Assembly (NCBI GenBank): GCA_902778995.1 | Contig: CACYZW010000041.1 | Location: forward strand, 1 to 37,559 | Reading direction: 5' to 3' | Length of the DNA stretch: 37,559 bases | Source of the DNA: an uncultured Eubacteriales bacterium | GTDB taxonomy: Bacteria; Bacillota; Clostridia; Christensenellales; Aristaeellaceae | Shown here: positions 14,941 to 29,294 of the stretch, piece by piece | Layout: each line of letters opens with the position of its first letter | How positions within the stretch are numbered: the first letter of the stretch is position 1 | Notes under the pieces: model-generated | Databases searched by the model: none | What the model was told of the DNA's origin: nothing | What the model saw: the letters and a program-made list of their open reading frames with translations, nothing else | Made by a program: the position numbers and the translations under genes

Positions 14941-14942
14941 GG

Positions 14943-15050: not shown

Positions 15051-15077
15051 CGGCTATTGTGAAAAGGAGGTTTTACC

Positions 15078-16748
15078 ATGAAGCAACTGACTTGTATGAT
15101 GCTGGTACTGGTGATGATGATGGGTGCGATGGCGCTGGCCGAAGGCGACGCGCCCATTGAGATCGCCAGCGCGGAAGCGCTGGCCGCAATCTGCGAAAAC
15201 CTATCCGGCAACTATGTGCTGACCGCCGACATCGACCTCGGCGGGGCGGAATGGACGCCCATCGGCGCCTACGCACCCTCCGGCGAGAGCGCGGAGGAGC
15301 AGGAGATCCCCGCTGCCGAAACCGCCTTTACCGGCAGCTTCGACGGCCAGGGCCACACCATCTCCAACCTGGTCATCAACCAGCCCGAGGGCTGGGCGCA
15401 GGGCCTGTTCGGCTGCATCGCCAATGTGAGGGTGGGCAACTTCACCCTGGAGAATGCCACCGTGGACGCACAGATGATGAGCGCTGACGTGGTGGGCTAC
15501 GCCTACTGCTCCACCGTGAGCCATGTGACGCTGGTGAACGGCAAGGTGACCGCCCATGCCGGTGAAATGTCGTCGGAAGGCATGTACGGCGGCATCGTCG
15601 GCGCGGGCATGGGTTCGATGATCGAGAACTGCACTGCCAAGGCGGATATCACGCTGCCCGCTGGCACCGCCAACGCGGGCATCGTGGGCGGCGGCCTGGA
15701 GATGACTAGCGTCGTGGGATGCACTGCCACCGGCACCGTCACGGCGGGCAACGACTGCTACGGCCTGGGCGGCGTGTCCGGCTGCGGCTTCGCGGCGGAG
15801 CAGTTCGCCGACTGCATCGCGGAGAACGTGACCATCACTGCGGGCGACAACTGCTTCTGGATCGGCGGCATCACCGGCTATGCCGGCGGCTATCCGGATG
15901 CGCAGTACGGCATGCCCGTGACCGTGTTCAAGCATTGCGCTGCCCGCAAAGTGAGCATGACGACCGGCGAGAATGCGGACGGCGTCGGCGATATTGTTGG
16001 CGCGGGCTTCTTCAACAAGGACGTCGCCGCCGCAAACGGCGCGCCCTTTGACCAGCCGACCCAATATGAACTGGTGGATTGTGTGACGGACAGCGATGGT
16101 GCTGAAGCTGACGACACTGCCGCCGCCATGCAGCTGCTGGAGGACGTGAAGGGCACCTATGTGGCGCTGTTCCCGGTGATCACCGCGCCGGAGTACGACC
16201 AGATCTGGCTCGATCCCTGCGTCGAGGCTGTCGGCGAGGAAGCCGCGCCAGAGGTTGCGGAGGCGCTCAAGGCCGCATGCAACGGCACGATCTACGGCCA
16301 GGAGGCCATCGACGCCTTCGGCGACGGCTCGAACGGCGCCCAGTTTGACTGCCTGTTTATCAATGGCGTTGACCGGATCACCTTCGACGGCACGGCCATC
16401 AGCGGCACGTTCGAGGGCAAAGAGGTGTTCAGACATGAATATACCTACGCCGGTCCGATGTCGCTTAATGGCATGATGGACGGCTACCTCTACGAGACCG
16501 CCGACGCGGACGCGGGCGAATTCCGGTATTTCTACATGATGCCCGACACCCCCGCGACTACCTGGCACCTGGAGTTCCGTTACGGCAGTGACGTGGACGC
16601 GCTTAAGCAGTACAACGAGGGCCCCTACGCCTACTGGCTGGCGGCGGGCTTCCCTGTAGACGCGGACGAGAAAATGATTCACGATGTCATCACGCTGTTC
16701 TGCGAGGAGAACCTGGCGGAGATGGCCGGGGAACGGTCTGCCGCCTGA
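15078..16748 (+). CDS. Secreted GLUG-repeat protein with C-terminal ZinT/YodA-like domain
   Basis: The product (556 aa) has a Sec signal (MKQLTCMMLVLVMMMGAMALA). Residues about 28-330 follow the beta-helix or GLUG pattern seen in bacterial surface proteins: NYVLTADIDLGG, WTPIGA, FTGSFDGQGHTISNLVI, then repeating units rich in IGGI/GVSG and paired Cys. Residues about 345-550 resemble ZinT/YodA, the periplasmic zinc/cadmium-binding lipocalin-like family: a helical start, then GVDRITFDGTAISGTFEGKE, YAGPMS, and the closing WHLEFRYGSD, like HFHIYWG in ZinT. The HxH of ZinT is HxE here, and I see no counterpart of its upstream His, so metal binding may be altered. A strong ribosome binding site (AAGGAGG) precedes ATG 15078. 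A role in metal capture is inferred from the domain and neighbours. Confidence 0.75.
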   Translation: MKQLTCMMLVLVMMMGAMALAEGDAPIEIASAEALAAICENLSGNYVLTADIDLGGAEWTPIGAYAPSGESAEEQEIPAAETAFTGSFDGQGHTISNLVINQPEGWAQGLFGCIANVRVGNFTLENATVDAQMMSADVVGYAYCSTVSHVTLVNGKVTAHAGEMSSEGMYGGIVGAGMGSMIENCTAKADITLPAGTANAGIVGGGLEMTSVVGCTATGTVTAGNDCYGLGGVSGCGFAAEQFADCIAENVTITAGDNCFWIGGITGYAGGYPDAQYGMPVTVFKHCAARKVSMTTGENADGVGDIVGAGFFNKDVAAANGAPFDQPTQYELVDCVTDSDGAEADDTAAAMQLLEDVKGTYVALFPVITAPEYDQIWLDPCVEAVGEEAAPEVAEALKAACNGTIYGQEAIDAFGDGSNGAQFDCLFINGVDRITFDGTAISGTFEGKEVFRHEYTYAGPMSLNGMMDGYLYETADADAGEFRYFYMMPDTPATTWHLEFRYGSDVDALKQYNEGPYAYWLAAGFPVDADEKMIHDVITLFCEENLAEMAGERSAA

Positions 16749-16837
16749 TGAAGCCAAACCAACGAACGGCGGGTACTGTGAGTGAAGGTCGTCAGAGAGG
16801 CTGAGCGTGCCTGCGGCCGCTGTGTTACAGCCTGGGG

Positions 16838-16971
16838 TGTGTTTCCAAATCGGCATCCCACGTTGTGGGTACACCATAAGTATTTATTCTGCCGACCATT
16901 ACTGCAAATCTGCAGTTTGCAATCGACCAAAATTCACCCCGTTCTGCACGACTCGGTTATGCGGTATTTCC
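16838..16971 (+). repeat. Truncated family A element containing a family B-like segment
   Basis: The right end TGCGGTATTTCC (16960-16971) and about 50 bp of family A interior (CTGCACGACTCGGTTA) are present, preceded by GTGTGTTTCC and a segment (ATCGGCATCCC, GTTGTGGGTACACCATAA) shared with 27965-28085. The left A end is missing. TTAA follows the right end, as in the 35-kb copy. Within the 532-bp gap 16749-17280 I see only this repeat, the ATPase tail, a hairpin and a promoter. Confidence 0.65.
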
Positions 16972-16985
16972 TTAAGCCCCCCTGC

Positions 16986-17102
16986 CTGATCCTCGGCGCT
17001 TTGGGCAAAGCGAACATGTGGATGGCCATCATCGCTGATGTGGGCGTGATGATCCCTGCTGTAATCAACGCCATCCGCTGTCTGTTTGTCAAGAACCTGC
17101 AG
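16986..17102 (+). pseudogene. C-terminal fragment of a P1B-type heavy-metal ATPase (ZntA/CadA-like)
   Basis: The stretch LILGALGKANMWMAIIADVG, followed by VMIPAVINAIRCLFVKNL, matches the last two membrane helices of Zn/Cd/Pb-exporting P1B ATPases. Their C-termini carry the same NMWxAIxADVGVxxxAVxNAxR pattern; the Asp there is part of the metal site in ZntA. All upstream domains are missing. The homology starts 14 bp after the family A right end, so the truncation looks linked to that repeat. There is no start codon or ribosome binding site; it is a remnant. Confidence 0.8.
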
Positions 17103-17112
17103 CATAGCCATC

Positions 17113-17157
17113 AAGGCCCACGCATGAATGCGGTTACTGCATGCATGCGTGGGTCTT
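17113..17157 (+). terminator. Hairpin after the metal-ATPase remnant
   Basis: The arms AAGGCCCACGCATG and CATGCGTGGGTCTT pair with one mismatch around a 17-nt loop. There is only a weak T-rich tail. It probably served as terminator of the lost ATPase gene, and now insulates the sugar operon promoter downstream. Confidence 0.55.
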
Positions 17158-17177
17158 GAAATCCTGTCAATCGTTCG

Positions 17178-17206
17178 TTGACAATCCACCGTGAATGCGG
17201 TATCAT
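17178..17206 (+). promoter_or_regulatory. Sigma-A promoter of the sugar-enzyme operon
   Basis: TTGACA (17178-17183), 17 bp, then TATCAT (17201-17206): one mismatch to consensus. The leader of about 65 nt ends in AAGGAGG before ATG 17281. Confidence 0.8.
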
Positions 17207-17280
17207 GGTTGCGGGATATTCATGCGCGAAAACAGCGCGTCCGGCACAGGGCGCGCGGCAATATATAAGGAGGCATAACC

Positions 17281-17952
17281 ATGAAGAGGTCGGAAATCAA
17301 CGCGGCGATTCGCTGGGCCAAGGCGCTGCTGGCGAAGCATCACATCTCGCTGCCCGTGTATTCCAACTGGTCGCCGGAGGAGTGGAAGGCGCATGCAGGC
17401 GAGACGGAGGTCATCCGGAAGCTGATGCTGGGCTGGGACATCACCGACTTTGGCTGCGGCGACTTCGATACCATCGGCACGGTGCTGTACACGGTGCGCA
17501 ACGGCAGCGCCGCCGATTCGGACGCGGGCGTGCCCTACTGTGAAAAATACCTGCTTCTCAGGGACGGCCAGCGGCTGCCGGAGCACTATCACGTCAACAA
17601 GACCGAGGACATCATCAACCGCGCGGGCGGGACGCTGCAGGTGTTCCTGTGGAACGCGGATCCGGCGACGGGCAAGCAGCTGGAAACCGACGTGGTGGTG
17701 TACCAGGACGGCATCCGGCATGTCTACAAGGCCGGCGAGGAGATTTTGGTCGCGCCCGGCAACAGCATCTCGCTGACGCCCTATCTGGCGCACATCTTCG
17801 GGCCGAAGCCCGGCACCGGCGACCTGGTCTGCGGCGAGGTTTCCAAGGTCAACGACGACCTGACGGACAATTACTGGCTGGAAAAGACCGCGCGCTTCCC
17901 CACCATCGAGGAAGACGAGCCGGCCATCCACCCGATGTGCAACGAATATTGA
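17281..17952 (+). CDS. D-lyxose/D-mannose-type ketol-isomerase (cupin)
   Basis: The product (223 aa) has the length and motifs of D-lyxose isomerases, cupin-fold metalloenzymes that interconvert D-lyxose and D-xylulose, and in many members D-mannose and D-fructose. The metal ligands are visible: H102 and H104 in LPEHYHVNK, E109 in KTEDI, and H171 in PYLAHIFG. GDFDTIGTVLYTVRNG and CEKYLLLRDGQ before them, and GDLVCGEVSKVNDD after, follow the family. AAGGAGG lies 8 nt before ATG 17281. It is the first gene of an operon with a ROK-SIS fusion, a HAD fusion and a PfkB kinase, so its natural substrate may be a larger aldose with the same C2-C4 configuration, such as D-glycero-D-manno-heptose; that is inference. 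Confidence 0.88.
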   Translation: MKRSEINAAIRWAKALLAKHHISLPVYSNWSPEEWKAHAGETEVIRKLMLGWDITDFGCGDFDTIGTVLYTVRNGSAADSDAGVPYCEKYLLLRDGQRLPEHYHVNKTEDIINRAGGTLQVFLWNADPATGKQLETDVVVYQDGIRHVYKAGEEILVAPGNSISLTPYLAHIFGPKPGTGDLVCGEVSKVNDDLTDNYWLEKTARFPTIEEDEPAIHPMCNEY

Positions 17953-17957
17953 GCGTT

Positions 17958-18006
17958 TGTCCGATTCGCGGATTGGCTTTGCCCTATCGCGAATCGGACA
18001 TATTTT
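17958..18006 (+). promoter_or_regulatory. Intercistronic hairpin between the isomerase and ROK-SIS genes
   Basis: A perfect 13-bp stem, TGTCCGATTCGCG (17958-17970) with CGCGAATCGGACA (17988-18000), has a 17-nt loop and is followed by TATTTT. It could be a partial terminator or an mRNA-stabilising or processing hairpin that makes isomerase and kinase levels differ. Confidence 0.55.
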
Positions 18007-18027
18007 GCGTTTGCGGAGGTTTTCTTG

Positions 18028-19671
18028 ATGAAGGACAGATGGATCGGACTGGACATCGGCGGAACCAAGTGCGCCGTGCTGCTGGCAGAGGTGGATCGCG
18101 GCATTCAGGTGCTGGATCGGCTGCGCCTTGAAACCCAGACGGAGAAGGGCTTCCAATCGGCCTGGGAGCGCATCTGCGGGGGCATCGACGCGATGCTGGC
18201 GCGTTCGGGAGAAAACCCCGTGCGCGGCATCGGAATCAGCTGCGGCGGGCCGCTGGATTCCCGCCGGGGCGTCATACTGAATCCCCCGAACCTGCCGGGC
18301 TGGGAGAACGTGCCCATCGTGGATCTGCTGCGGGAACGCTTCGGCCTGCCTGCCTTTTTGCAAAACGACGCCAACGCCTGCGCGCTGGTGGAGTGGCGCA
18401 TGGGCGCGGGCCGGGGCGCGCGGGACATGGTGTTTTTGACGATGGGCACAGGCATGGGCGCGGGCATCATCGCAAACGGCGCGCTGGTGTGCGGGGCGAA
18501 CGACATGGCCGGCGAGGCGGGGCATCTGCGCCTCGCGGCGGAAGGGCCTGTGGGCTATGGCAAGGCCGGCTCCTTCGAGGGCTTTGCCAGCGGCGGCGGC
18601 ATGGATCGCCAGGCCCGGGCCTTTACCCGGGCGCGCGTGGCGGCGGGCGACCCGCCCGCCTGGATTCGGGAGGGCATCGCCCCGGAGGACGTGGACACGG
18701 CGCTGATCGCGCGCTATGCCCGCCGGGGAGACGCCGATGCCCTTTTGCTGATGGAAAGCGCCGGGGAACGGCTGGGGGAGGGCGTCGCGCTGATCGCGGA
18801 CATGCTGAACCCCGAGCGCGTGGTGATCGGCAGCGTGTTCGCCCGGTGCGAGGATCTGCTGCGCGCGCCTATGGAGCGGGCGCTGGCCCGCGAGGCGCTT
18901 CCCCCTGTCCTGGCGGGGCTGCAGGTGCTTCCGGCACAGACCGGGGAACGGCTGGGAGATTACGCCGCCGTCATGGTGGCGCTGGAGGCGCTGGGCATCG
19001 ACCCCATGGCCGGGGGCGAGGCGGCAAACCCGCGGGTGCTGGCCCACTATGCGCGCCTGTTGGAGCGCTATCCCGCGCTGGAGCGCTGTCGGGAGGCGAT
19101 CATGGAGGCCTTCGAATTGCTGCTGGACTGCTACCGCAGGGGCGGTAAGCTGATGGCCGTGGGCAACGGCGGCAGCTGTGCTGACTGCGAGCACATCGTC
19201 GGCGAGCTGATGAAGGGCTTCCTCCTCAAGCGCCCGTTGGACGGGGCAAAGCAGGCGGCGCTGCGGGAAGCCATAGACGGCCTGTTGCCCGGCGCGTCCC
19301 GGAAACTGCAACAGGGACTTCCGGCCATCGCCCTCACCGGCCACACGGCGCTTTCCACGGCGGCGCAGAACGACCTGGATCCCCTGCTGGGCCCCGCGCA
19401 GCAGGTGGTGGCGCTGGGGCGTCCCGGCGACGTGGTTCTGGGCATCAGCACCAGCGGCAACGCGAAAAACGTGGCGCTGGCGGTGCAGACGGCGAAGGCG
19501 CTGGGCATGCGTACGCTGGGGCTGACCGGCGGCGACGGGGGACGGCTGGCGAAGCTTTGCGATTGCGCCGTCGTCGTGCCGGCGTCCGGCTCCGCCGACG
19601 TGCAGGAGCTGCACCTACCCGTCTATCACGCGCTCTGCGCGATGATCGAGGCGGCATTCTTTGACGAATAA
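18028..19671 (+). CDS. Fusion: ROK sugar kinase + GmhA-like SIS phosphosugar isomerase
   Basis: Two enzymes form one chain of 547 aa. Residues 1 to about 310 are a ROK kinase: phosphate loop DIGGTKC, GISCGGPLDS, the catalytic region FLQNDANACALVEW, TMGTGMGAGI, and GEAGHLRL with the conserved His. The Cys-rich zinc motif of many ROK kinases is absent (GYGKAGSFEGF instead). Residues about 335-547 are a SIS domain of the phosphoheptose-isomerase type: VGNGGSCADCEHIVGELMKG with the catalytic-type E393, ISTSGNAKNV, LTGGDGGRLA, and QELHLPVYH with H529 matching the GmhA active-site His. An insert of about 45 residues after MKGFLLKRPL exceeds E. coli GmhA. The start ATG 18028 has GGAGG at 8 nt; the TTG before it is less likely. 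A fused kinase and isomerase suggests consecutive steps on one sugar. Confidence 0.88.
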   Translation: MKDRWIGLDIGGTKCAVLLAEVDRGIQVLDRLRLETQTEKGFQSAWERICGGIDAMLARSGENPVRGIGISCGGPLDSRRGVILNPPNLPGWENVPIVDLLRERFGLPAFLQNDANACALVEWRMGAGRGARDMVFLTMGTGMGAGIIANGALVCGANDMAGEAGHLRLAAEGPVGYGKAGSFEGFASGGGMDRQARAFTRARVAAGDPPAWIREGIAPEDVDTALIARYARRGDADALLLMESAGERLGEGVALIADMLNPERVVIGSVFARCEDLLRAPMERALAREALPPVLAGLQVLPAQTGERLGDYAAVMVALEALGIDPMAGGEAANPRVLAHYARLLERYPALERCREAIMEAFELLLDCYRRGGKLMAVGNGGSCADCEHIVGELMKGFLLKRPLDGAKQAALREAIDGLLPGASRKLQQGLPAIALTGHTALSTAAQNDLDPLLGPAQQVVALGRPGDVVLGISTSGNAKNVALAVQTAKALGMRTLGLTGGDGGRLAKLCDCAVVVPASGSADVQELHLPVYHALCAMIEAAFFDE

Positions 19672-19701
19672 AAGCGAAAAAAGGCCTGAAAGGGTGATAG
19701 C

Positions 19702-21489
19702 ATGCTGGAGTATGTCGCAGTGCCCGACCGCGCGCCCGGTCCCGTGCGGGCGGTGGTGTTTGACTTTGACGGCACGATTTCCACGCTGCGCTGCGGCTGG
19801 GAGCAGACGATGAAGCCGCTGATGCTGGAGATGATTTCCGGCGGCGAGGCCTGGGACGCGGCGCTGGAGGCGGAGGTGGACGCCTACATCGACGAATCCA
19901 CCGGCATACAGACGATCTACCAGATGCAGTGGCTGGCGGAGCGGGTCCACTTGGGCGGCGCGAACCCGAACCTGTCCGACGACCCCTGGTGGTACAAGGC
20001 GGAATACAACCGCCGCCTGATGCAGACGGTTCGGCGGCGCATGGAGGCCGTTCGCGCGCGGCCGGAGCTGCGCGGGCGCTATCTGATGGCGGGCAGCGAG
20101 GCCTTTTTGAAGGCGCTGAGGCAGAGGGGCGTGCGGCTGTACGCCGCCAGCGGTACCGACCATTGCGACGTGCTGAACGAGATGGAGGCGCTGGGCGTGC
20201 GCGACCTGTTCGACGGGGTGGCGGGCGCACCGGAGCAAAGGGCGGACTGCTCGAAGGAGAAGGTGATCTCCGGGCTCATGGCCCGGGAGGGCCTTTCCGG
20301 GCGCGAGGTGTGCGTCATCGGCGACGGCAAGGTGGAGATAAGCCTGGGCCGGAAGGCGGGCATGCGCACCGTCGGCCTGGCCAGCGACGAGGTCGCCCTG
20401 CGGGGCGTCAACCGGGCGAAGCGGGCGCGGCTGATGGCGGCGGGCGCAGATGTGATCGCCGGGGATTTTACGGATCAGGAGGCGCTGCTGGCCTTCCTCG
20501 GACTGTCGGAATCGGGGGAGAACCCGCCGCGCCGCCGTCTGCAGCTGCCCTTTGACGGCGTCACCACCCATACCGCCCGAAACCGGCGCAACCTCGTGCG
20601 CATCGAAACGCTGGCCGTTCCGGGCCAGACCCCGGCGGAGCGCTGGGACGCCGAGGGCTTCGACACCTTTGTCGATCGGGTGCGCAAGGCCCGGGCGGAG
20701 GGTCGCCAGCTGATCTTCTCCATGGGCGCGCATGTGATCAAGTGCGGCCTGTCGCGCTATCTGATCGAGCTGATGAAGCGGGGCTACATCACCCATCTGG
20801 CCGGGAACGGCGCGTGCAGCATCCACGATTTCGAGCTGGCCTGCCTGGGCGGCACCAGTGAACACGTGCCCACCGCCATCGAGGACGGCTCCTTCGGCAT
20901 GTGGGAGGAGACCGGCGGCTGGATGAACGAGGCCATCCGTCAGGGCGCGGCCGAGGGGCTGGGGTACGGCGAGAGCCTGGGGCTGTACGTCGACCGGCAT
21001 CCCGAGCGCTTTCCTCACCGTGAGGATTGCGTGCTGTGGAACGCCTGGCGGCTGGACATTCCCGCCACCTATCACATCGCCCTGGGTACGGACATCATTC
21101 ACCAGCACCCGAGCTGCGATTTCCAGGCCATCGGCCGGGCCAGCGGCGTGGATTTTCACAGGATGTGCTGGTCGGTGGCCCATCTGGACAGGGGCGTGTA
21201 CATGAACTTCGGCTCCGGCGTCATCGGCCCGGAGGTGTTTCTGAAGGCGCTGTCCATCGCGCGAAACCTGGGCTATCCCACCTTCGACATCACCACGGCG
21301 AATTTCGATCTGATCGACCTGGGGGACTATCGCCGGGATCTGGGCTACGCCGACCCCCAATACTACTATCGCCCGCGAAAGAACATCGTCAACCGCCCGG
21401 TTTCCCGGGGCGGCATGGGCTGGCACTTCTGCGGCGATCACGCCCGGACGATTCCGGAGCTTTACCGAAGGCTGACAGGAGGCGAGTGA
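19702..21489 (+). CDS. Fusion: HAD phosphatase + deoxyhypusine-synthase-like domain
   Basis: The chain is 595 aa. Residues about 15-265 are a HAD hydrolase: DFDGT with nucleophile D21 and D23, SGTD as motif II, a Lys in SKEKV, and VIGDGKVE as motif IV, with a helical cap between. Residues about 275-595 contain a Rossmann-like fold resembling bacterial deoxyhypusine-synthase-like proteins: FSMGAHVIKCGLSRYLIELM, HLAGNGACSIHDFELA, TSEHVPTAIEDG, then ALGTDIIHQHP and NFGSGVIGPEVFLKAL. I cannot assign a reaction to this second half; NAD binding is likely from the fold. The start ATG 19702 has AAAGGG at 7 nt, and the gene lies 30 bp after the ROK-SIS gene. In the operon the HAD half could act as a heptose-bisphosphate or sugar-phosphate phosphatase. 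Confidence 0.8.
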   Translation: MLEYVAVPDRAPGPVRAVVFDFDGTISTLRCGWEQTMKPLMLEMISGGEAWDAALEAEVDAYIDESTGIQTIYQMQWLAERVHLGGANPNLSDDPWWYKAEYNRRLMQTVRRRMEAVRARPELRGRYLMAGSEAFLKALRQRGVRLYAASGTDHCDVLNEMEALGVRDLFDGVAGAPEQRADCSKEKVISGLMAREGLSGREVCVIGDGKVEISLGRKAGMRTVGLASDEVALRGVNRAKRARLMAAGADVIAGDFTDQEALLAFLGLSESGENPPRRRLQLPFDGVTTHTARNRRNLVRIETLAVPGQTPAERWDAEGFDTFVDRVRKARAEGRQLIFSMGAHVIKCGLSRYLIELMKRGYITHLAGNGACSIHDFELACLGGTSEHVPTAIEDGSFGMWEETGGWMNEAIRQGAAEGLGYGESLGLYVDRHPERFPHREDCVLWNAWRLDIPATYHIALGTDIIHQHPSCDFQAIGRASGVDFHRMCWSVAHLDRGVYMNFGSGVIGPEVFLKALSIARNLGYPTFDITTANFDLIDLGDYRRDLGYADPQYYYRPRKNIVNRPVSRGGMGWHFCGDHARTIPELYRRLTGGE

Positions 21490-21490
21490 C

Positions 21491-22486
21491 ATGACCCGAG
21501 GAGAGCTGGAATCGCTGCTCGGGCGCATGGACGGCGCCCGGGTCGCGCTGATCGGCGATATTTGCCTGGACATGTACTGGCGAGCGGACATGCGGCTCAG
21601 CGAGCTGTCCAGGGAGACGCCCCACCACCCGCTGCCCGTGGTGGAGGAGCGGATATCCCCGGGCGGCGCGGGCAACGTGGCCTGCAATCTGGCGGCGCTG
21701 GAGCCGGGGGCGCTGAAGCTGTTGGGCGCGGCGGGCACGGACTGGCGGGGTGATCTGCTGCTGGACGCGCTGGGAGCGCGGGACGTGGATACCGCGCTGG
21801 TGATGCGGGACGACGCCGTGTGCACGAATACCTATATCAAGCCGCTGCGCGCGGGCATTTCCGACGTGGTGTACGAGGATCCGCGCATCGACTTTGAGAA
21901 TCGCGCGCCCATACCGGCAAGGCTGGAGTCCACACTGTTGGAGGCCTTGGACGGGGTTGCCGGACAGATCGACGTGCTGCTGGTCAGCGACCAGATGGCC
22001 TATGGCTGCGTGACCGAAAAGGTGCGCGAACGGGTACAGGCGTTGGGCGCGGCGGGCATGACCGTGGTCGTGGACAGCCGGAGCCGCATCGGGGCCTATC
22101 AGGGCGTCGTCGTCAAGCCCAACGAGGTGGAAGCGGCCCGGGCCTACGGCGGCGAGGCGTCTGATTTCGAGGGCCTGGCCCGGGCAGCGTCCCGGCGCAC
22201 CGGCAGGCCCGCAATCGTCACCGCGGGGGCGCTGGGCTGTTATGTTGCCGAAGAAGGGCGCGTCCGGCATATGCCCGGCGTACCGGTTCCGCCGCCCGTG
22301 GACACCGTCGGGGCGGGGGACACGTTCCTGGCGGCGCTTGGCTGCGCGCTGGCTGCGGGCGCGTCCCTGGCGACGGCGGCGCAGGTCGCGAACCTGGCCG
22401 CTTCGGTCACCGTTCGCAAGCTGGGAACCACTGGAACCGCCTCGCGGGCGGAGCTGATGGCGGCGTTCGACCGCCTGGAAAGTTAA
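21491..22486 (+). CDS. PfkB-family sugar kinase, HldE N-domain (heptose-7-phosphate kinase) type
   Basis: The product (331 aa) is a PfkB/ribokinase-fold kinase closest in layout to the kinase half of HldE/RfaE: VALIGDICLDMYWRADM, RETPHHPLPVV with the PGGAGNVACNLAAL substrate loop, NTYIKPLRAG, KPNEVEA, and the anion-hole motif VGAGDTF with catalytic D277. HldE phosphorylates D-glycero-D-manno-heptose 7-phosphate at C1. There is no nucleotidyltransferase half, so a nucleotide-activated product would need another enzyme. AGGAGG lies 8 nt upstream, and one base separates the previous stop from this ATG, so translation is probably coupled. It closes the enzyme operon; the importer genes start 125 bp later from a separate promoter. 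Confidence 0.85.
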   Translation: MTRGELESLLGRMDGARVALIGDICLDMYWRADMRLSELSRETPHHPLPVVEERISPGGAGNVACNLAALEPGALKLLGAAGTDWRGDLLLDALGARDVDTALVMRDDAVCTNTYIKPLRAGISDVVYEDPRIDFENRAPIPARLESTLLEALDGVAGQIDVLLVSDQMAYGCVTEKVRERVQALGAAGMTVVVDSRSRIGAYQGVVVKPNEVEAARAYGGEASDFEGLARAASRRTGRPAIVTAGALGCYVAEEGRVRHMPGVPVPPPVDTVGAGDTFLAALGCALAAGASLATAAQVANLAASVTVRKLGTTGTASRAELMAAFDRLES

Positions 22487-22504
22487 AGAAAAATGGAATT
22501 TGTG

Positions 22505-22533
22505 TTGACATTTGTGACAAAACGGCATATAAT
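22505..22533 (+). promoter_or_regulatory. Consensus sigma-A promoter of the sugar ABC importer operon
   Basis: TTGACA (22505-22510), 17 bp, TATAAT (22528-22533): both boxes perfect. It starts a leader of about 70 nt before the ATPase gene, so the importer can be expressed independently of the enzymes. No operator dyad was evident. Confidence 0.88.
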
Positions 22534-22611
22534 TAACAGGGTTGACGCATTGAAAAACGCGGTTTGCGGCAACAGGGGCGGAAGTTCCGGCGAAAGGAAT
22601 GATGGAAGCAG

Positions 22612-24144
22612 ATGGAGCAATACAAGGGTCAGACCATCGTAGAGCTGGAGCATATCAACAAGAGCTTCCCGGGCGTCAAGGCGCTGGACGACGTGCATTT
22701 CCACCTGAGATCGGGCGAGGTCATGGCGCTGCTGGGGGAGAACGGCGCGGGCAAATCCACGCTGATGAAGGTGCTCTCCGGCGTATATCAGAAGGATTCG
22801 GGCACGATCCGGATATTCGGCGAAACCGTTGAAAATATGAACCCCAAGCGGGCGCAGGAGATGGGCGTGGCCATCATCCACCAGGAGCTGAACATGTGCC
22901 AGCACCTGACCGTGGCCGAGAACATGTTCCTGGGCCGCGAGAAGAAAAAGGGCCTGGTGCTTTCCCAGCGCGAGATGAACGTGGAGGCCGGAAAGATACT
23001 GAAATCCCTGGCCATCGACCTGGATCCCACCACCATGGTGGGCAGCCTGAAGGTGTCGATGCAGCAGATGGTTGAAATCGCCAAAGCGCTGTCCACGAAC
23101 GCCCGGATTCTGATCATGGACGAGCCCACGTCGGCCCTGACGGAGAAGGAAATCGAGGAAATGTTCCGCATCATTCGCCAGCTTCGGGACGAGGGCAAGG
23201 GCATCGTGTACATCAGCCATCGGCTCGAGGAGCTGCAGCACATCGTGGATCGCGTGACCATCATGCGCGACGGCAGATACATCACCGAGGGCAATTTCGC
23301 GGACATGGACATGTCCACCATCATCGCCAACATGGTGGGCCGCGAGATCAAGGAGAAATTCCCCCGGGTGCACTGCGAAAAGGGCAAGAAGATATTCGAG
23401 GTGAAGCACCTGAACGCGGGCCGCATGGTGCGGGACGTGTCGTTCTCTTCGTATGAGGGCGAGATTTTGGGCTTCGCGGGCCTGATGGGCGCGGGCCGCA
23501 CCGAGACCACCCGGGCCATATTCGGCGTGGACCCAAAGGAGTCGGGCCAATTCTTCCTGGACGGGAAGGAGATCAAGATCAACAAGCCGATGGACGCCAT
23601 TCGCCAGGGCGTGGTGCTTGCCCCGGAGGACCGCAAGCGCGACGGCCTGTGCACCAAGCTGTCCATACGCTCCAACATAGAGCTGCCCAATCTGGACATC
23701 AGCTCCAACAGGGTGGGCGTTGTGAACCGCCGAAAGGTCACGCAGATGGTGGCTAAGGCGAAGGAGAACTTCTCCATCAAGATGCCCAACGACGAGGTGG
23801 ACGCCGGAAGCCTGTCCGGCGGCAACCAGCAGAAACTGGTGGTGGGCAAGTGGCTGGCCCGGGACAGCCGGGTGGTGATATTCGACGAGCCCACCCGTGG
23901 CATCGACGTGGCGGCGAAGGTGGAAATCTACAACCTGATGAACCAGCTGAAGCAGCAGGGCATTTCGGTCATATTCGTGTCGTCGGAGATGCCCGAGGTG
24001 CTGGGTATCGCGGATCACATCATCGTGATGTGCGACGGGCGTATCACCGGCGAGCTGGACATCGGCGAGGCCACTCAGGAAAAGATACTGGAGCTGGCCA
24101 CGCGGTTTGAAAACAAAATCGCCACAGGCGCGGCGGGCGCGTAG
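22612..24144 (+). CDS. Sugar ABC importer ATP-binding protein (RbsA/MglA type)
   Basis: The product (510 aa) carries two ABC domains in tandem, as in ribose and galactose importers. Domain 1 has Walker A GENGAGKST, a degenerate signature (LKVSMQQMVEIAKAL) and Walker B ILIMDEPTSALTEKE. Domain 2 has the typically degenerate Walker A (GLMGAGRTE), signature LSGGNQQKLVVGKWL, and Walker B VVIFDEPTRGIDVAAK. It would sit on the cytoplasmic face and power uptake through the permease downstream. ATG 22612 is preceded by AAAGG at about 14 nt and GGAAG at 3 nt, so the ribosome binding site is unusual, but the family start fits. Substrate specificity lies in the binding protein; the enzyme operon upstream suggests a sugar related to lyxose or a heptose. 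Confidence 0.93.
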   Translation: MEQYKGQTIVELEHINKSFPGVKALDDVHFHLRSGEVMALLGENGAGKSTLMKVLSGVYQKDSGTIRIFGETVENMNPKRAQEMGVAIIHQELNMCQHLTVAENMFLGREKKKGLVLSQREMNVEAGKILKSLAIDLDPTTMVGSLKVSMQQMVEIAKALSTNARILIMDEPTSALTEKEIEEMFRIIRQLRDEGKGIVYISHRLEELQHIVDRVTIMRDGRYITEGNFADMDMSTIIANMVGREIKEKFPRVHCEKGKKIFEVKHLNAGRMVRDVSFSSYEGEILGFAGLMGAGRTETTRAIFGVDPKESGQFFLDGKEIKINKPMDAIRQGVVLAPEDRKRDGLCTKLSIRSNIELPNLDISSNRVGVVNRRKVTQMVAKAKENFSIKMPNDEVDAGSLSGGNQQKLVVGKWLARDSRVVIFDEPTRGIDVAAKVEIYNLMNQLKQQGISVIFVSSEMPEVLGIADHIIVMCDGRITGELDIGEATQEKILELATRFENKIATGAAGA

Positions 24145-24165
24145 TCGAAAGGAGAGGTACATTCC

Positions 24166-25179
24166 ATGGAAGAAAAGAAACAGAACCCCATCAAGAAATT
24201 CCTTTCCGCCCGGGGCGTCGGCCAGGTGGTGACGGTGCTGATCGGCCTGGTGATACTGTGCGCGGTGTTCAATGTCATCAATCCGAACTTCCTGCGCCAG
24301 CGCAACGTGGCGAACCTGCTGCGCCAGATCGCGCCGTGGATCATCATCGGCATCGGCCAGGGCTATGTGCTGATCACCGCCAACATCGACCTTTCCATCG
24401 GTTCGGTGGTGGGCATGAGCTGCATGATCATCGCAACCCTGATTTGCAACGGCGCGCATCCCGTGCCGGCGGTACTGGTGGCGCTTGTGGCGAGCCTGGC
24501 GACGGGCGCGGTCAACGGCACGCTGGTGGCGAACTTCAAGCTGCCGCCCTTCGTGGCGACCCTGGGCACCCAGACCATCTGCCGCGGCGTGGCCCAGCTG
24601 GTGAACAATAACATGAACACCGACGGCATCACCGGCGCAAAGTTCGGCGCGGCGGCCAAGGCCATGACGAACTTCTTCTATTACAACAAGACGCTGGGGA
24701 TTTTCAATACGTTCTGGATCGCGCTGGTGCTGTGGGCCATATTCAACTTCGTATTGGCCTATACCCGCACCGGTCGCCACCTCTACGCGGTCGGCTCGAA
24801 CACCGAGGCGGCCAAGCTTTCGGGTGTGAACGTGTCGCTGACGATATTGAAGGCTTACATGGTGTCTTCGTTCTGCGCGTTTGTGCTGGGCCTGGTCGTC
24901 TGCGCGCAGACCGGCACCGGCACCACCAACGCGGGCATGTCCTACGAAACCTACGCGGTAGCGGCCAGCGTCATCGGCGGCATCTCCACCATGGGCGGCA
25001 CGGGCATCCTCTCGGGCGTGCTGGTGGGCGCCAGCGTCTGGGCGGTCATGGACAACGGCCTGCAAATGATCGGCACCCAGGTGGGCCTTAAAAATGTGGT
25101 CGTGGGCCTGATCGTCATCGGCTGCGTGCTGCTGGACGTCGTCCGCCGCACGGGCCGGTTGGGCAAGAGGAAGTCGTAA
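24166..25179 (+). CDS. Sugar ABC importer permease (RbsC/MglC type)
   Basis: The product (337 aa) is a polytopic membrane protein of the BPD_transp_2 family, the homodimeric channel of ribose-type importers. Characteristic are NLLRQIAPWIIIGIGQGYVLITANIDLSIGS near the first helices, ATLGTQTICRG, YTRTGRHLYAVGSNTEAAKLSGV (coupling loop), and GGISTMGGTGILSGVLVG near the end. The start ATG 24166 follows AAAGGAGAGG, and it lies 21 bp after the ATPase gene. Its stop codon TAA is part of the TAAA target duplication of a family A element, which inserted exactly at the gene end without changing the protein. The binding-protein gene comes after that element. Confidence 0.93.
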   Translation: MEEKKQNPIKKFLSARGVGQVVTVLIGLVILCAVFNVINPNFLRQRNVANLLRQIAPWIIIGIGQGYVLITANIDLSIGSVVGMSCMIIATLICNGAHPVPAVLVALVASLATGAVNGTLVANFKLPPFVATLGTQTICRGVAQLVNNNMNTDGITGAKFGAAAKAMTNFFYYNKTLGIFNTFWIALVLWAIFNFVLAYTRTGRHLYAVGSNTEAAKLSGVNVSLTILKAYMVSSFCAFVLGLVVCAQTGTGTTNAGMSYETYAVAASVIGGISTMGGTGILSGVLVGASVWAVMDNGLQMIGTQVGLKNVVVGLIVIGCVLLDVVRRTGRLGKRKS

Positions 25180-25180
25180 A

Positions 25181-25448
25181 GGAAATACCGCACTATTGAC
25201 GGCTGAATTTAGAGTGTGTTTCTAAATGGAAGGAGATGCAGTTTCGAGTGGATTTGACTGCATTTCAAGGCGCTTTTTCGCAGCTTTAGTGGACCCTAAG
25301 GCAAGAATCAGGCATTTTAGAAACACACTCTAAGCCGCCTGCTTCCTGCTGATTACTTGACTTGCCGCCAGCAAGCCTGCGAAATTTGCAGTTTGCAATC
25401 GACTGAAATTCATCTCGCTACTGCACGACTCGATTATGCGGTATTTCC
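25181..25448 (+). repeat. Family A element with a family B element inside, TAAA target duplication
   Basis: The ends GGAAATACCGCA (25181-25192) and TGCGGTATTTCC (25437-25448) are perfect inverted repeats flanked by TAAA (25177-25180 and 25449-25452). Removing the inner family B segment leaves about 142 bp, the size of a plain A element. It lies inside the importer operon, between permease and binding protein. Confidence 0.88.
25209..25333 (+). repeat. Family B MITE-like element (nested)
   Basis: This 125-bp segment has perfect 18-bp inverted ends, TTAGAGTGTGTTTCTAAA (25209-25226) and its complement (25316-25333). It interrupts the family A hairpin GGCTGAATTTCAGCC after GGCTGAAT. No clear target duplication is seen. 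It has no coding potential. Confidence 0.85.
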
Positions 25449-25466
25449 TAAACAGATATTGCGGAA

Positions 25467-25488
25467 TTAAAACGCCACGGCGTTTTAA
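25467..25488 (+). promoter_or_regulatory. mRNA hairpin just before the sugar-binding-protein gene
   Basis: TTAAAACGC and GCGTTTTAA form a perfect 9-bp stem closed by CACG. It ends 8 bp before the AAGGAGG ribosome binding site of the 25512 gene. It may shield a processed 5' end and raise the level of the binding protein over the permease. Apart from repeats, the 332-bp gap 25180-25511 holds nothing else. Confidence 0.5.
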
Positions 25489-25511
25489 GAAATAAAAAGG
25501 AGGAACAGACA

Positions 25512-26453
25512 ATGAAGAAACTGTTCGCACTGGCTCTGGTTCTGGTGTTGGCTCTGGGCTGCACCGCTGCTCTGGCTGAGCAGTACACCATCTACCTGGT
25601 GACCATGGACCTGGAGGACATGCACTGGGTGTCCGTCAACGAAGGCGCCGAGGCGGCCATCGCCGAGGCCAAGGAAGCTGGCGTCGATGTCCGCTACGTC
25701 TGGGTCGGCCCCACCGTCGGCAAGAACGACGCCGCGCAGATCGAGTGCATCAACAACGCCTATGCTGACAATGCCAACGTCATCCTGCTGGCCTCCAACG
25801 GCCCGGAGACCGAGGTCGAGACCATCGAGCGCTATGACGCTGACGGCGTGAAGTTCGTCTATGTCGACTCCCCCGCCAACAGCGACGTGGCCCTGTGCAC
25901 CCTGGCCACCGACAACACCGAAGCGGGCCGCATGGCCGGCCGCACGCTGCTGGAGGCCCTGGAGGCCGCCGGTATCACCGAAGGCAAGATCGGCATTGTG
26001 AACATCAATACCTCCACCGTGTCCACCCAGTATCGCGAGAACGGCTTCCGCGAGGTCTTCGATGGCAAGGGCTACGAGATCCTCGAGACCCAGTACGGCG
26101 AGGGCGACGCGGCCAAGTCCCAGGAGATCGCGCAGAACTTCATCACTGAAGGCGTCGTGGGCCTGTTCGGCTGCAACGAGGGCGCAACCGTGGGCGTTGG
26201 CAATGCCATCGCCGCCGAGGGCGAGACCAGCATCCTGGGCGTGGGCTTCGATAAGTCCGACGCCATCCTGAACCTGGTCGTGGACGGCAAGCTGATCGCT
26301 ACCACCGCTCAGAACCCCTACAACATGGGCTATGAGGGCGTCAAGGTTGCCATCGAGTACCTGACCAACGGCACCACCGAGTTTGAGGACGTTGACACCG
26401 GCGTTACCATGCTGACCGCCGACGTCATCAAGGAACAGGGCATGCTGAAGTAA
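25512..26453 (+). CDS. Sugar ABC importer substrate-binding protein (periplasmic-binding type 1 fold)
   Basis: The product (313 aa) starts with a signal sequence (MKKLFALALVLVLALGCTAALA). The Cys is preceded by ALG, a poor lipobox, so cleavage after AALA and release, or lipid anchoring, are both possible. The mature part is a ribose/galactose-type binding protein: YLVTMDLEDMHWVSVNEGAE, NNAYADNANVILLASNGPE, DNTEAGRMAGRTLLEAL, GLFGCNEGATVGVGNAI, and the closing TAQNPYNMGYEGVKVAIEYL. The Trp in MHWVSV and the Asp in FDKSDA occupy typical ligand-contact positions. Its codons (CTG, GCC, GGC, ATC) are strongly biased, as in highly expressed genes. The ribosome binding site AAGGAGG is strong. Being last after a hairpin and repeat fits separate, higher expression. 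A strong terminator follows. Confidence 0.93.
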   Translation: MKKLFALALVLVLALGCTAALAEQYTIYLVTMDLEDMHWVSVNEGAEAAIAEAKEAGVDVRYVWVGPTVGKNDAAQIECINNAYADNANVILLASNGPETEVETIERYDADGVKFVYVDSPANSDVALCTLATDNTEAGRMAGRTLLEALEAAGITEGKIGIVNINTSTVSTQYRENGFREVFDGKGYEILETQYGEGDAAKSQEIAQNFITEGVVGLFGCNEGATVGVGNAIAAEGETSILGVGFDKSDAILNLVVDGKLIATTAQNPYNMGYEGVKVAIEYLTNGTTEFEDVDTGVTMLTADVIKEQGMLK

Positions 26454-26469
26454 TCAGTCTTTTCCCGGC

Positions 26470-26498
26470 GCGGCTCGCCTTCGGGCGAGCCGCTTTTT
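26470..26498 (+). terminator. Rho-independent terminator of the importer operon
   Basis: A 10-bp GC stem (GCGGCTCGCC at 26470-26479 with GGCGAGCCGC at 26484-26493) is closed by a TTCG tetraloop and followed by TTTTT. It is a textbook terminator. Confidence 0.95.
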
Positions 26499-26509
26499 AG
26501 ATACCCACT

Positions 26510-26746
26510 CCAGTATAATACGCTTCTCAAATAAAAATACAAAATCTGTGGGCGTCTTTTTCGGACAGCAGTCGCGGCGCTGCCGGCGGCCCGCTTGCGC
26601 GGACGCCGGTGCAAAACCTGCCTTTGCGTCACTACGGTCAGCGATGCGCTGCATCGCCTCCCTTCGTTCCGAGCCGCCAGAACGAAAAACCCATCCCATA
26701 TCTTGTTCCGTTTTTTATTTGAGAATAGTATTACAATACAGTCTGG
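26510..26746. repeat. Family D MITE-like element with AT-rich inverted ends
   Basis: The left end (26510-26537, containing AATACGCTTCTCAAATAAAAA) and the right end (26711-26746, complement containing AATACTATTCTCAAATAAAAA) match at 19 of 21 core bases. The outermost bases on both sides are CCAG. The interior of about 170 bp is GC-rich and non-coding by eye. It lies between the importer terminator and a minus-strand gene. Confidence 0.65.
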
Positions 26747-26750
26747 CACT

Positions 26751-27005
26751 TCATCGTTGGAATATCCTTTTCACAGAATCACCAATTCCTTGTAAGAATG
26801 GGATCGCCTTTTCATGGAAGAACGGAATCACCTTATCCCTGAAAAACTCAACCACGCCATTCTCCCGGAGAAATTCTTGTGCATCCTGGATCATCCGTTC
26901 ATAATCTCCGTGGTATTGCATGGCTTTGGCGCCTACCCACGCGATGAAGAGAAGGAAGAAAGTCCCCAGGAACAGATGGACTACTGATCGGCGGAAGTCT
27001 TTCAT
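26751..27005 (-). CDS. Small membrane-anchored protein of unknown function (84 aa)
   Basis: I do not recognise this gene. The product has an N-terminal hydrophobic helix (VVHLFLGTFFLLFIAWVG) after a basic start MKDFRRS. A soluble, amphipathic tail follows with a loose repeat (FFRDKVIPFFHEKAIPFL). This points to a single-pass membrane protein with its tail outside or inside. Upstream of ATG 27005 is AAAGAGAGA, a weak ribosome binding site. It lies 90 bp after the amidotransferase-like gene on the same strand and may be cotranscribed with it. Its stop lies next to the family D right end. Codon use is more AT-rich than its neighbours, as for transferred DNA. It may be a chance frame. Confidence 0.5.
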   Translation of the reverse strand: MKDFRRSVVHLFLGTFFLLFIAWVGAKAMQYHGDYERMIQDAQEFLRENGVVEFFRDKVIPFFHEKAIPFLQGIGDSVKRIFQR

Positions 27006-27095
27006 ATTGTCTCTCTTTCTTACATCGTTACTTGCCAGGTCTATTTGAACAAATTATCTCCATTGTCAGTCCCCTTGGGAGAGCCTGTGAAAGGC

Positions 27096-27842
27096 TTATC
27101 GTTTCGCCGTTAAATAATCCGCGATGCCCTTCCACAGTGGAACGTAGCCTTCCCAATTGACGAACTCCGGCGGTCCCCAGTGTGGGGCACAATCCGACAT
27201 AAAGGCACATGAGCGGCCTTTTCCAAATTCACCGAAGGCCAGGAAGGGATCGCCTTCGATGGTCATCACAATGTCCATCCCCGCGATCGGCAAAGTACGA
27301 TTATAGCCAAGGAAGAAGGGCCAATCCCCTGGCACTCCTTTTAATGCAGGATGATCATGCAGTACGACCGGCGTAACACCCTCGGGATGCTCCATCAGGT
27401 CGTCATAATCCAGGCACCTCACCGGGAGTACGTCCTGCACCGCCGTTCGACCGTACTTGGCTTTTGCGTCCACACCGGAGAATACCATATAACCTCCAAC
27501 CATCATGAATGCGCCGCCGCCGCGTACATAGTCCCGAATCGTCTGGCAACGGTTGGGCTTTCGCTGGCTGCGGTTAAAAGTGTCGGGGTGGAGCAGTAGT
27601 GTATTGGAGCCGATATCCGACAGGATTACAAGGTCGTATTGATTCATTTCATCAACGGTGAACGGGAATTCAGTTATTGCCCGGTGATTTGGAAGATAAG
27701 TGACGTTGTAGCCAGATCCGTTCAACGCATCAATCAGTGTTTGCGCGCCTTCTTCGTAGACAGAGGTATAAAAGGGGTCAAAACCTTTCACATGTGTCGT
27801 GTAGCTGGTCCAGCTCTCGCCTGCAAGCAATACCTGTTTCAT
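27096..27842 (-). CDS. ThuA-like / glutamine-amidotransferase-fold protein
   Basis: The product (248 aa) belongs to the large class I amidotransferase-like family that includes ThuA and COG5426 proteins: MKQVLLAGESWTSYTTHVKGFD, EGAQTLIDALNGSGY, YDLVILSDIGSNTLLLHP, IRDYVRGGGAFMMVGGYMVFSG, VVLHDHPALKGVP, then GRSCAFMSDCAPHWGPPEFVNW. In this family the gas-vesicle or sugar-oxidoreductase links are context-based and not proven, so I assign no reaction. The usual nucleophile Cys is not obvious after GG(G)AF. The start ATG 27842 is strongly supported by AGGAGG at 9 nt; the longer open frame upstream is unrelated and carries a SEC-C remnant. The gene is probably cytoplasmic and cotranscribed with the small membrane protein downstream. 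Confidence 0.82.
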   Translation of the reverse strand: MKQVLLAGESWTSYTTHVKGFDPFYTSVYEEGAQTLIDALNGSGYNVTYLPNHRAITEFPFTVDEMNQYDLVILSDIGSNTLLLHPDTFNRSQRKPNRCQTIRDYVRGGGAFMMVGGYMVFSGVDAKAKYGRTAVQDVLPVRCLDYDDLMEHPEGVTPVVLHDHPALKGVPGDWPFFLGYNRTLPIAGMDIVMTIEGDPFLAFGEFGKGRSCAFMSDCAPHWGPPEFVNWEGYVPLWKGIADYLTAKR

Positions 27843-27857
27843 GGCCTGTTTCCTCCT

Positions 27858-27902
27858 ATAGAACTTCTTGTATTTTTTTCCAAACCCCCACGGGCATGGG
27901 TC
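27858..27902 (-). pseudogene. Decayed SEC-C zinc-binding tail
   Basis: The in-frame stretch DPCPWGFGKKYKKFY resembles the SEC-C motif (DPCPCGSGKKYKKCC), the zinc-binding tail of SecA and many small proteins. Three of the Cys positions are changed (W, F, Y). Its spacing and lysines are kept, so it looks like the end of a lost gene just before the amidotransferase-like gene. Confidence 0.5.
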
Positions 27903-27964
27903 GTCAGGGCTGACTATATCGTCCTTCACCATCGTTGCGCCGTCCCGTTTTTCTTTGCCTGGTT

Positions 27965-28085
27965 TTAGAGTGTGTTTCTGAATCGGCATCCCAACGTTGT
28001 GGGTACACCATGAATAATAGTCGGTGCGAACCTGCAAATCACGTACACCATAAGCATTTATTTTACTGACTATTACAGTAAACTT
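27965..28085 (+). repeat. Family B variant repeat
   Basis: It starts TTAGAGTGTGTTTCTGAAT and continues with a segment (CGGCATCCCAACGTTGTGG, GTACACCATGA) also present at 16838-16900. GTACACCAT occurs twice within the element. The rest of the 725-bp gap 27843-28567 holds the SEC-C remnant, the reverse family A copy and the tetR promoter; 28086-28218 shows nothing I can name. Confidence 0.55.
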
Positions 28086-28218
28086 CCACCTTCTATTTTA
28101 CCATAGATTTACCGGAGGGGCAACGGGAAATTTGCTGTGTTTTTCGGTTGCGATGAACAACGCAATTTGTTGTCTGGGATTGTGACAGAATAGAAGTCGT
28201 ATGCGCCGCTTGCCATAA

Positions 28219-28494
28219 GAAAACGCCGCACAATCGAGGCGTGCAGTAACGGGATGAATTTTAGAGTGTGTTTCTAAAATGCCTGAAGTGCATTTGGCTG
28301 GAAACTCCGTTGCAGATACGGCGCCAACGGTGCCGCGCCTCAAATCTACGATTTGAGCCACAGACTCTAGGGTTACTATAGTCAGATGCGAACTGCAAAA
28401 CCGCAGGTTACCTGGATTGGCAATCGAGGTTTTGCAGGCAGCAGATGGCTGAAATTCAGCCGTCAATGCGCCATGAGCATTGTGCGGTGTTTTT
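28219..28494 (-). repeat. Family A element, reverse orientation, containing a family B element
   Basis: The ends are GAAAACGCCGCA (28219-28230) and TGCGGTGTTTTT (28483-28494), more diverged than other copies. The inner family B segment starts TTAGAGTGTGTTTCTAAA at 28261, just after GATGAATT, and seems to end with a decayed CACAGACTCTAG (28359-28370). A perfect small hairpin, CTCAAATC-TAC-GATTTGAG, lies at 28339-28357. No target duplication remains visible. Confidence 0.72.
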
Positions 28495-28498
28495 TAAC

Positions 28499-28527
28499 TT
28501 GACAACGGGCGGGAAATGGATTATAGT
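28499..28527 (+). promoter_or_regulatory. Promoter of the TetR-ABC locus
   Basis: TTGACA (28499-28504), 17 bp, TATAGT (28522-28527). The -35 starts 4 bp beyond the family A element. Just downstream, CTAACGATGTATT (28540-28552) nearly repeats a sequence in the dyad at 29244-29271, so the regulator probably binds here too. Confidence 0.72.
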
Positions 28528-28567
28528 TTACGTCGTAAGCTAACGATGTATTCTATGGAGATCATTT

Positions 28568-29176: not shown

Positions 29177-29198
29177 GATTGACATGACAGGGTGATAC

Positions 29199-29224: not shown

Positions 29225-29243
29225 ATATGTACAAATGGAGGTT

Positions 29244-29271: not shown

Positions 29272-29294
29272 GAAGGAAGGGGGAGGGATATGGA

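Follow-up and report, generated by a model that had tools for sequence, protein, structure and literature searches.

An RbsABC-type sugar locus around the uncharacterised GSU2086 enzyme family in an uncultured Eubacteriales bacterium

Genes and enzyme fusions of the locus

We analysed a stretch of 37,559 nucleotides (contig CACYZW010000041.1, at its full length hereafter called the window) from an uncultured Eubacteriales bacterium of the family Aristaeellaceae, corresponding to contig 41 of a draft genome of 3.9 Mb that is 83% complete. Seven consecutive forward-strand open reading frames (ORFs) at 17281-26453 encode sugar enzymes, two of which are fusions, followed by an ATP-binding cassette (ABC) importer. 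This gene set exemplifies a module found repeatedly in other genomes; at its core are a HAD phosphatase, a GSU2086-family protein and an HldE-type PfkB kinase, joined in some loci by a GmhA-type SIS isomerase and, less often, by a ROK kinase. What is new here is an ABC-fed sugar locus, known in kind, around the uncharacterised GSU2086 enzyme family. No description of the locus, of the function of GSU2086 enzymes or of heptose catabolism was found in open PubMed Central (PMC) papers, in keeping with the undescribed look noted in a first-pass annotation made from the sequence alone, and a single paper found there mentions GSU2086. The genes and associated features are listed below.

17178-17206, forward strand: promoter-like site TTGACA-17-TATCAT, 5' of the enzyme genes, with 11 of 12 consensus matches
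17281-17952, forward strand: D-lyxose/D-mannose isomerase-type cupin, here called LYX (PF07385)
18028-19671, forward strand: ROK kinase (about residues 1-325) fused to a GmhA-type SIS domain (about 326-547) (PF00480, PF13580)
19702-21489, forward strand: HAD phosphatase (about residues 1-270) fused to a GSU2086-family domain (about 271-595) (PF00702, NF052581)
21491-22486, forward strand: HldE-type PfkB kinase, without a nucleotidyltransferase domain (best curated match rfaE_dom_I)
22505-22533, forward strand: perfect consensus promoter TTGACA-17-TATAAT, before rbsA
22612-24144, forward strand: RbsA-type ABC transporter ATPase (Pfam, NCBIfam)
24166-25179, forward strand: RbsC-type permease (PF02653)
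25210-25333, no strand assigned: repeat resembling a miniature inverted-repeat transposable element (MITE), which carries terminal inverted repeats and separates rbsC from rbsB; not counted among the functional parts
25512-26453, forward strand: RbsB-type periplasmic binding protein (PF13407)
26470-26493, forward strand: intrinsic terminator-like hairpin, a 10-bp stem followed by TTTTT, 3' of rbsB

LYX matched PF07385 over its full length (277.5 bits, cut-off 20.8), as it did the solved D-lyxose isomerase 3kmh (E 2e-52), and scored 219 bits against the D-lyxose/D-mannose isomerase equivalog NF051472, below the cut-off of 350. The best match of the ROK part is the ROK glucokinase subfamily, at 166 bits, below the cut-off of 260. 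The SIS domain scored 125 bits against the GmhA equivalog TIGR00441 (below the cut-off of 209) and has an insertion relative to the E. coli GmhA fragment with which it was aligned. It retains the zinc and catalytic residues of GmhA as H389, E393, Q526 and H534 in fusion numbering; in the gonococcal enzyme these residues are described as H61, E65, Q175 and H183 (PMC5387315). An alignment of 16 SIS sequences from the module, drawn from the 30 SIS-bearing loci described below, shows all four in 14; in the other two, L002 and L004, D and E replace E65 and the Q. The retention of the four residues makes a heptose phosphate a plausible substrate.

In the second fusion, the HAD part has a DFDGT motif from residue 21, and its PDB relatives gave no substrate hint. 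The C-terminal domain matches the NCBIfam family GSU2086 (NF052581) at 384 bits (cut-off 250) over positions 2-300 of 301, and a lysine, K284 of the domain and K560 of the fusion, is shared by all GSU2086 sequences in the alignment. An AlphaFold model of the domain, from an alignment of 47 sequences, had a mean predicted local distance difference test score (pLDDT) of 91.8. Its best Foldseek matches in the PDB were AgrE/ArgZ (from E 4e-8), archaeal LOR/SDH and deoxyhypusine synthase (DHS; from E 1e-7), with template modelling (TM) scores of about 0.5-0.57, root-mean-square deviations mostly of 5-10 Å and 10-16% identity; at the sequence level, a short stretch shows weak similarity to ArgZ/AgrE as well. 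By this model, the domain is a distant relative with the DHS/AgrE fold, a fold of nicotinamide adenine dinucleotide (NAD) enzyme type, and it may use NAD itself. DHS is described as oxidising spermidine by NAD and carrying the product on a lysine (PMC7226451). We rejected DHS proper, since PF01916 matched neither the window protein at E 0.001 nor any protein of 60 genomes of the class, the own genome among them; a Chloroflexota member of the GSU2086 family reached 1.4e-4 and 17.9 bits against PF01916, under the cut-off of 27. The earlier label "deoxyhypusine-synthase-like" is thus right at the level of the fold and wrong for family membership. The domain has its overall fold in common with DHS and AgrE/ArgZ but differs from them in that its partners are sugar enzymes. 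This domain, which connects the locus with its relatives, was given no function in the first-pass annotation.

The PfkB kinase has rfaE_dom_I (TIGR02198, the HldE kinase domain) as its best curated match, at 159 bits against an equivalog cut-off of 345, and its best solved relative is 4e84, a D-beta-D-heptose 7-phosphate kinase (E 4e-22). For the importer, the RbsA equivalog score was 583 (cut-off 745) and the RbsB equivalog score 80 bits (cut-off 337), on the basis of which ribose import was rejected; all importer matches listed fall under the ribose, allose and xylose equivalog cut-offs, and PDB relatives of the binding protein gave no substrate hint. Known RbsABC/AlsABC-type importers with a D-lyxose isomerase likewise comprise an ATPase, a permease and a binding protein, and the solved isomerase is a full-length relative of LYX; the window genes differ from such systems by missing these three sets of cut-offs.

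In summary, the gene content and both fusions that the first-pass annotation had proposed were recovered at the same positions by the ORF list, Pfam and NCBIfam. Its GmhA-like SIS domain is borne out by the four residues, its HldE-type kinase by rfaE_dom_I and 4e84, and its RbsA/C/B importer by three genes on the forward strand at 22612-26453.

Recurrence of the module and its genomic contexts

The GSU2086 family was present above cut-off in 3 of 60 relatives, 24 of 391 genomes of the class and 12 of 396 genomes of the order, with the own genome counted. It was found in none of 27 sampled genomes of the same genus, some of them incomplete, and the best match to the window PfkB in these genomes was 58 bits, versus 710 for the protein against itself. 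In a scan of named genomes, the best 80 of 524 relatives were taken by similarity to the window GSU2086 domain; 130 rows minus 8 repeats gave 122 distinct loci (L numbers), window included. The loci were gathered around GSU2086 genes and form a non-random sample, uninformative on the occurrence of the partners elsewhere. Partners were called by blastp with the window, L002 and L004 sequences, within 8 kb of the GSU2086 gene and at bit thresholds of 150 for PfkB, 100 for HAD, 100 for SIS and 200 for ROK. Contigs of metagenome-assembled genomes frequently end close to the locus, and neighbouring ORFs were picked by length, with wrong frames possible.

Among the 122 loci, PfkB was found in 87, HAD in 78, both in 72 and SIS in 30. 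When restricted to the 74 loci flanked by 4 kb or more of sequence in both directions, window included, the counts were 56 for PfkB, 51 for HAD, 47 for both and 20 for SIS, and 8 loci had none of HAD, PfkB, SIS and ROK kinase. The repeated presence of these genes beside GSU2086 exceeds chance, the 27 genus genomes without the family serving as background. A YhhN-family gene (Pfam assignment on L102 only, 9157-9906) lies near GSU2086 in ten loci, at a distance of 52 bases or fewer in nine.

HAD and GSU2086 are fused in 10 of the 122 loci, that is the window and nine others, eight with the same order and L044 with the reverse one. A SIS-HAD fusion occurs in L008, L067 and L068, and ROK adjoins SIS, unfused, in L052, L103, L104 and L112. 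The module parts are mostly encoded by separate genes, and the two fusions of the window are variants of that arrangement. The varied orders and fusions (ROK-SIS, SIS-HAD, and HAD-GSU2086 either way round) are strong hints that the module enzymes work in one pathway.

Importers of the window's type recur beside the module. Close RbsABC relatives accompany it in L091 (Candidatus Pullichristensenella), which has the full set with LYX (68%), ROK and SIS, and in L179, from the same family as the window's genome, while L110 has a close RbsB relative only, at the contig end; in these three loci RbsA identity is 69-77% and RbsB identity 57-65%. L158, L170, L175 and L068 have importers of this type that are more distantly related. 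The first of these, a Chloroflexota plasmid, carries a binding protein, an ATPase, two permeases and an oxidoreductase, then HAD, GSU2086, PfkB and SIS; the importer of L175 is divergent, with an ATPase in two pieces that is under the partner threshold. In L082 and L084 an RbsA-like gene lies on the opposite strand. The module recurs next to RbsABC-type importers in several lineages; an RbsA-type gene above threshold within 8 kb is found in 8 of 122 loci, so that most sampled loci have no RbsA-type importer nearby.

In a rapidly built FastTree phylogeny of the family, whose branches are long, the 8 importer rows fall into more than one group and require 6 changes, at least 5 of them forced, in a count that set them against 24 SIS-labelled rows only and left out 88 unlabelled rows. 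The importer labels are no more clustered than shuffled ones (shuffle mean 7.3; 81 of 500 as low). Rows titled Verrucomicrobia or Kiritimatiellae fall among Bacillota rows; both this mixing and the lack of the family in the genus point to possible horizontal movement of the module into this genome.

GSU2086 genes also occur in other contexts. In Geobacter, locus numbers place a GSU2086 member between hldE and gmhA, and mutants in the three genes show similar losses of fitness (values of -3.1, -3.2 and -3.7; PMC5585712), so that the same three families are grouped as in the window; hldE is annotated there as including an adenylyltransferase, and no importer, ROK or LYX is mentioned in that passage of the table. 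A Solidesulfovibrio plasmid (L157, 10405-13483) encodes a protein whose nucleotidyltransferase and PfkB domains stand in the opposite order to those of HldE, followed by GSU2086 and SIS genes, and no importer appears among its 22 listed features, in a gene table that can be incomplete. The Solidesulfovibrio set, and in part the Geobacter group, thus show the enzymes in the kind of arrangement, with a nucleotidyltransferase and no importer, that the first-pass annotation had named as evidence against its proposal if found always; elsewhere importers recur.

Transcription signals and surrounding sequence

The outer limits that had been set for the locus, 17178-26498, are apt, coinciding with the promoter-like site and the terminator-like hairpin. 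The scanned region has 6 promoter-like sites versus 2.9 (standard deviation 1.8) in shuffles, and the genome contains 96 copies of TTGACA N15-19 TATAAT, versus 0 for the reversed control. Terminator-like sites are at chance level (9 versus 8.2, standard deviation 2.2), and the hairpin after rbsB has the longest stem among the nine. The leading promoter-like site, the promoter before rbsA and the hairpin after rbsB suggest that the enzyme genes and the rbs genes are two transcription units. Inspection by eye revealed no clear operator shared by both promoters, and no Rfam family matched within 14000-29000.

A perfect 12-bp inverted repeat with a 17-nt loop was seen by eye at 17959-17999, between the lyxose-isomerase and ROK-SIS genes, possibly an intercistronic hairpin or operator. 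The MITE-like repeat has 77 matching pieces in the own genome. Directly downstream of the locus, on the reverse strand, lies a PF07090 (GATase1_like) gene at 27096-28037, for which no link to the module was seen. It is followed at 28568-32815 by a TetR-type regulator and then two long ORFs with RbsA-like ABC ATPase similarity, exporter-like in appearance. Upstream, an ORF of 1825 aa at 8552-14029 has, by eye, a signal-like start and a C-terminal end resembling a membrane anchor.

Proposed sugar conversion and its alternatives

The HldE nucleotidyltransferase (TIGR02199) was above cut-off in none of 26 module genomes, with 69 bits against a cut-off of 181.5 in the own genome (83% complete). HldD was above cut-off in none of 35 module genomes, all of which have weaker epimerase-type matches, and a heptosyltransferase (PF01075) was found in 1 of 35, G413, the own genome being negative. 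The scarcity of these genes argues against ADP-heptose synthesis and for import and conversion. We consequently lowered the former: it is unlikely that the locus serves ADP-heptose synthesis for lipopolysaccharide (LPS), and the earlier remark that the lack of a nucleotidyltransferase speaks against a complete ADP-heptose route here is supported.

The ADP-heptose pathway (GmhA, HldE, GmhB, HldD) shares with the window a GmhA-type SIS protein with zinc and catalytic residues, an HldE-type PfkB kinase and a HAD phosphatase. It differs in that the module genomes have no nucleotidyltransferase or HldD above cut-off and that the HAD fits no GmhB model, and the window locus has in addition an importer, a ROK kinase, a lyxose-type isomerase and the GSU2086 domain. 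For heptose or heptulose use, the open PMC literature yielded only the mannoheptulose proposal for Rhodobacteriaceae bin08, which has an ABC importer and a ROK kinase but otherwise works with different enzymes, a COG0529 kinase and a COG3684 aldolase (PMC5507952). The window resembles that proposal in combining an ABC importer with a ROK kinase, there for a seven-carbon sugar. Pfam and NCBIfam showed no aldolase or adenylylsulfate-kinase domain in the ten window proteins scanned, among them the products of all seven genes of the locus, and the mannoheptulose pathway as published was rejected, its marker enzymes COG3684 and COG0529 not being found in the scanned proteins.

The reading that we prefer, tentatively and as something short of probable, is the RbsABC-type import of an unusual aldose or ketose, perhaps a seven-carbon one, and its conversion to central-metabolism intermediates by a heptose-phosphate-type module. 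Import followed by sugar-phosphate conversion had been anticipated by the first-pass annotation, and it is supported by the enzyme types and the recurring importer association. The substrate, the direction and the order of steps that follow are those we infer from the enzyme families. The RbsABC-type transporter would take up the sugar, LYX would interconvert the free aldose and ketose, ROK kinase would phosphorylate the terminal hydroxyl, and the GmhA-type SIS domain would interconvert aldose- and ketose-phosphate. The forward reaction of GmhA is described as using sedoheptulose 7-phosphate (PMC11056994); with D-glycero-D-manno-heptose as substrate, the product here may be sedoheptulose 7-phosphate, by the reverse of that reaction. 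The core trio may work on the same phosphate pool, in which PfkB would put a phosphate at C1, the GSU2086 domain would catalyse an NAD-recycling rearrangement, for example an epimerisation, and HAD would take off a phosphate.

Several observations weigh against this proposal. The scores of PfkB, SIS, LYX and RbsB are all under their equivalog cut-offs, and no GmhB model is among the nine NCBIfam matches listed for the HAD fusion. LYX accompanies the module in the window and L091 only (2 of 122 loci), and HAD and PfkB occur with no SIS or ROK above threshold in 34 of the 74 loci. Weaker nucleotidyltransferase matches below the cut-off are present in 9 of 26 genomes, G413 being just under it (177 versus 181.5). 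The Solidesulfovibrio set sits in a polysaccharide-type cluster, beside acylneuraminate/pseudaminate genes, and the Geobacter grouping of hldE, GSU2086 and gmhA, as given in PMC5585712, supports the module and also goes against a simple reading. GSU2086 adjoins an AXE1 esterase in seven loci and a GH42M-type protein in nine (5 and 7 after dropping two duplicate contig pairs); in L053, L066 and L148, the first and last of which are the same contig, it lies between the AXE1 esterase and GH42M-type genes, near an oxidoreductase with flavin adenine dinucleotide (FAD). Finally, alpha-mannosidase genes (GH38/GH125) are found in the vicinity of 11 of the 122 loci, as compatible with mannose as with heptose. 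GH38 or GH125 is confirmed by Pfam in seven of them (L044, L072, L081, L112, L113, L117 and L138), the other four being BLAST calls, and L072 has two GH38 genes and one GH125 gene by the module.

These mannosidase neighbours, together with the loci that have no SIS, keep a manno-configured hexose as a candidate. The alternative that follows, mannose-type salvage, is rather unlikely in our estimate: mannose, lyxose or another manno-configured sugar freed by alpha-mannosidases would be turned by LYX into the ketose and by ROK into the 6-phosphate, with the core trio acting on a mannose derivative. Besides the mannosidase genes, as at L072, it is favoured by the LYX family, that of D-lyxose/D-mannose isomerases, and by the ROK glucokinase subfamily as best match of the ROK part (166 bits versus 260). 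It gives no role, however, to a GmhA-type SIS domain with four metal ligands or to an HldE-type PfkB; LYX and ROK alone would suffice for a mannose route, and no mannosidase is among the ten window proteins scanned with Pfam.

Two further alternatives appear to us about equally improbable. In the first, sedoheptulose 7-phosphate would be converted by SIS, PfkB and HAD to heptose 1-phosphate, destined for a glycoconjugate or signal, and the importer would be an unrelated neighbour, in line with the Geobacter hldE-GSU2086-gmhA group (PMC5585712) and with the Solidesulfovibrio set beside its acylneuraminate/pseudaminate genes. The nucleotidyltransferase, HldD and heptosyltransferase counts (0 of 26, 0 of 35 and 1 of 35) speak against it, as do the co-directional importer, ROK and LYX genes of the window, whose relatives are grouped again in L091. 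The second is amino-sugar chemistry, where the GSU2086 domain would oxidise or transfer the amine of an imported amino sugar, an idea that arises because the characterised fold relatives, DHS and AgrE/ArgZ, act on amines. The fold match agrees with it, as do the catalytic lysine and NAD-dependent spermidine oxidation described for DHS (PMC7226451) and an invariant lysine in GSU2086, a possible counterpart, but the partners are of GmhA and HldE type, and Pfam assigned no deaminase, deacetylase or aminotransferase domain to any of the seven genes. A loose composite, in which an enzyme operon and an rbsACB operon serving different sugars are adjacent by chance, is very improbable, the separate perfect promoter before rbsA and the repeat inserted between rbsC and rbsB being outweighed by close RbsABC relatives that adjoin the module in L091, L110 (RbsB only) and L179.

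Returning to import and conversion, a more specific proposal, and an unlikely one as it stands, is that GSU2086 proteins, built on the DHS fold, form a new class of enzymes that act on sugar phosphates with recycling of NAD, such as a 6-epimerase or cyclase of heptose phosphates, and that they would serve surface-glycan synthesis elsewhere and heptose breakdown here. The common heptose of LPS is the 6-epimer, and an NAD-recycling epimerisation would for that reason unite the synthetic and uptake contexts. If this were true, the family would have a surface-glycan role in Geobacter and Solidesulfovibrio, and in the present organism it would help to import and degrade a heptose, for instance the sugar of the LPS inner core; the locus would in that case represent a first dedicated route of heptose catabolism.

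If import and conversion hold, the GSU2086 enzyme family would gain a testable function, and the known substrates of the fold, which are amines for the characterised members considered here (DHS and AgrE/ArgZ), would be extended to sugar phosphates. Heptoses are common in the LPS of Gram-negative bacteria, and the locus would then suggest a way in which gut and rumen Clostridia might use these sugars.

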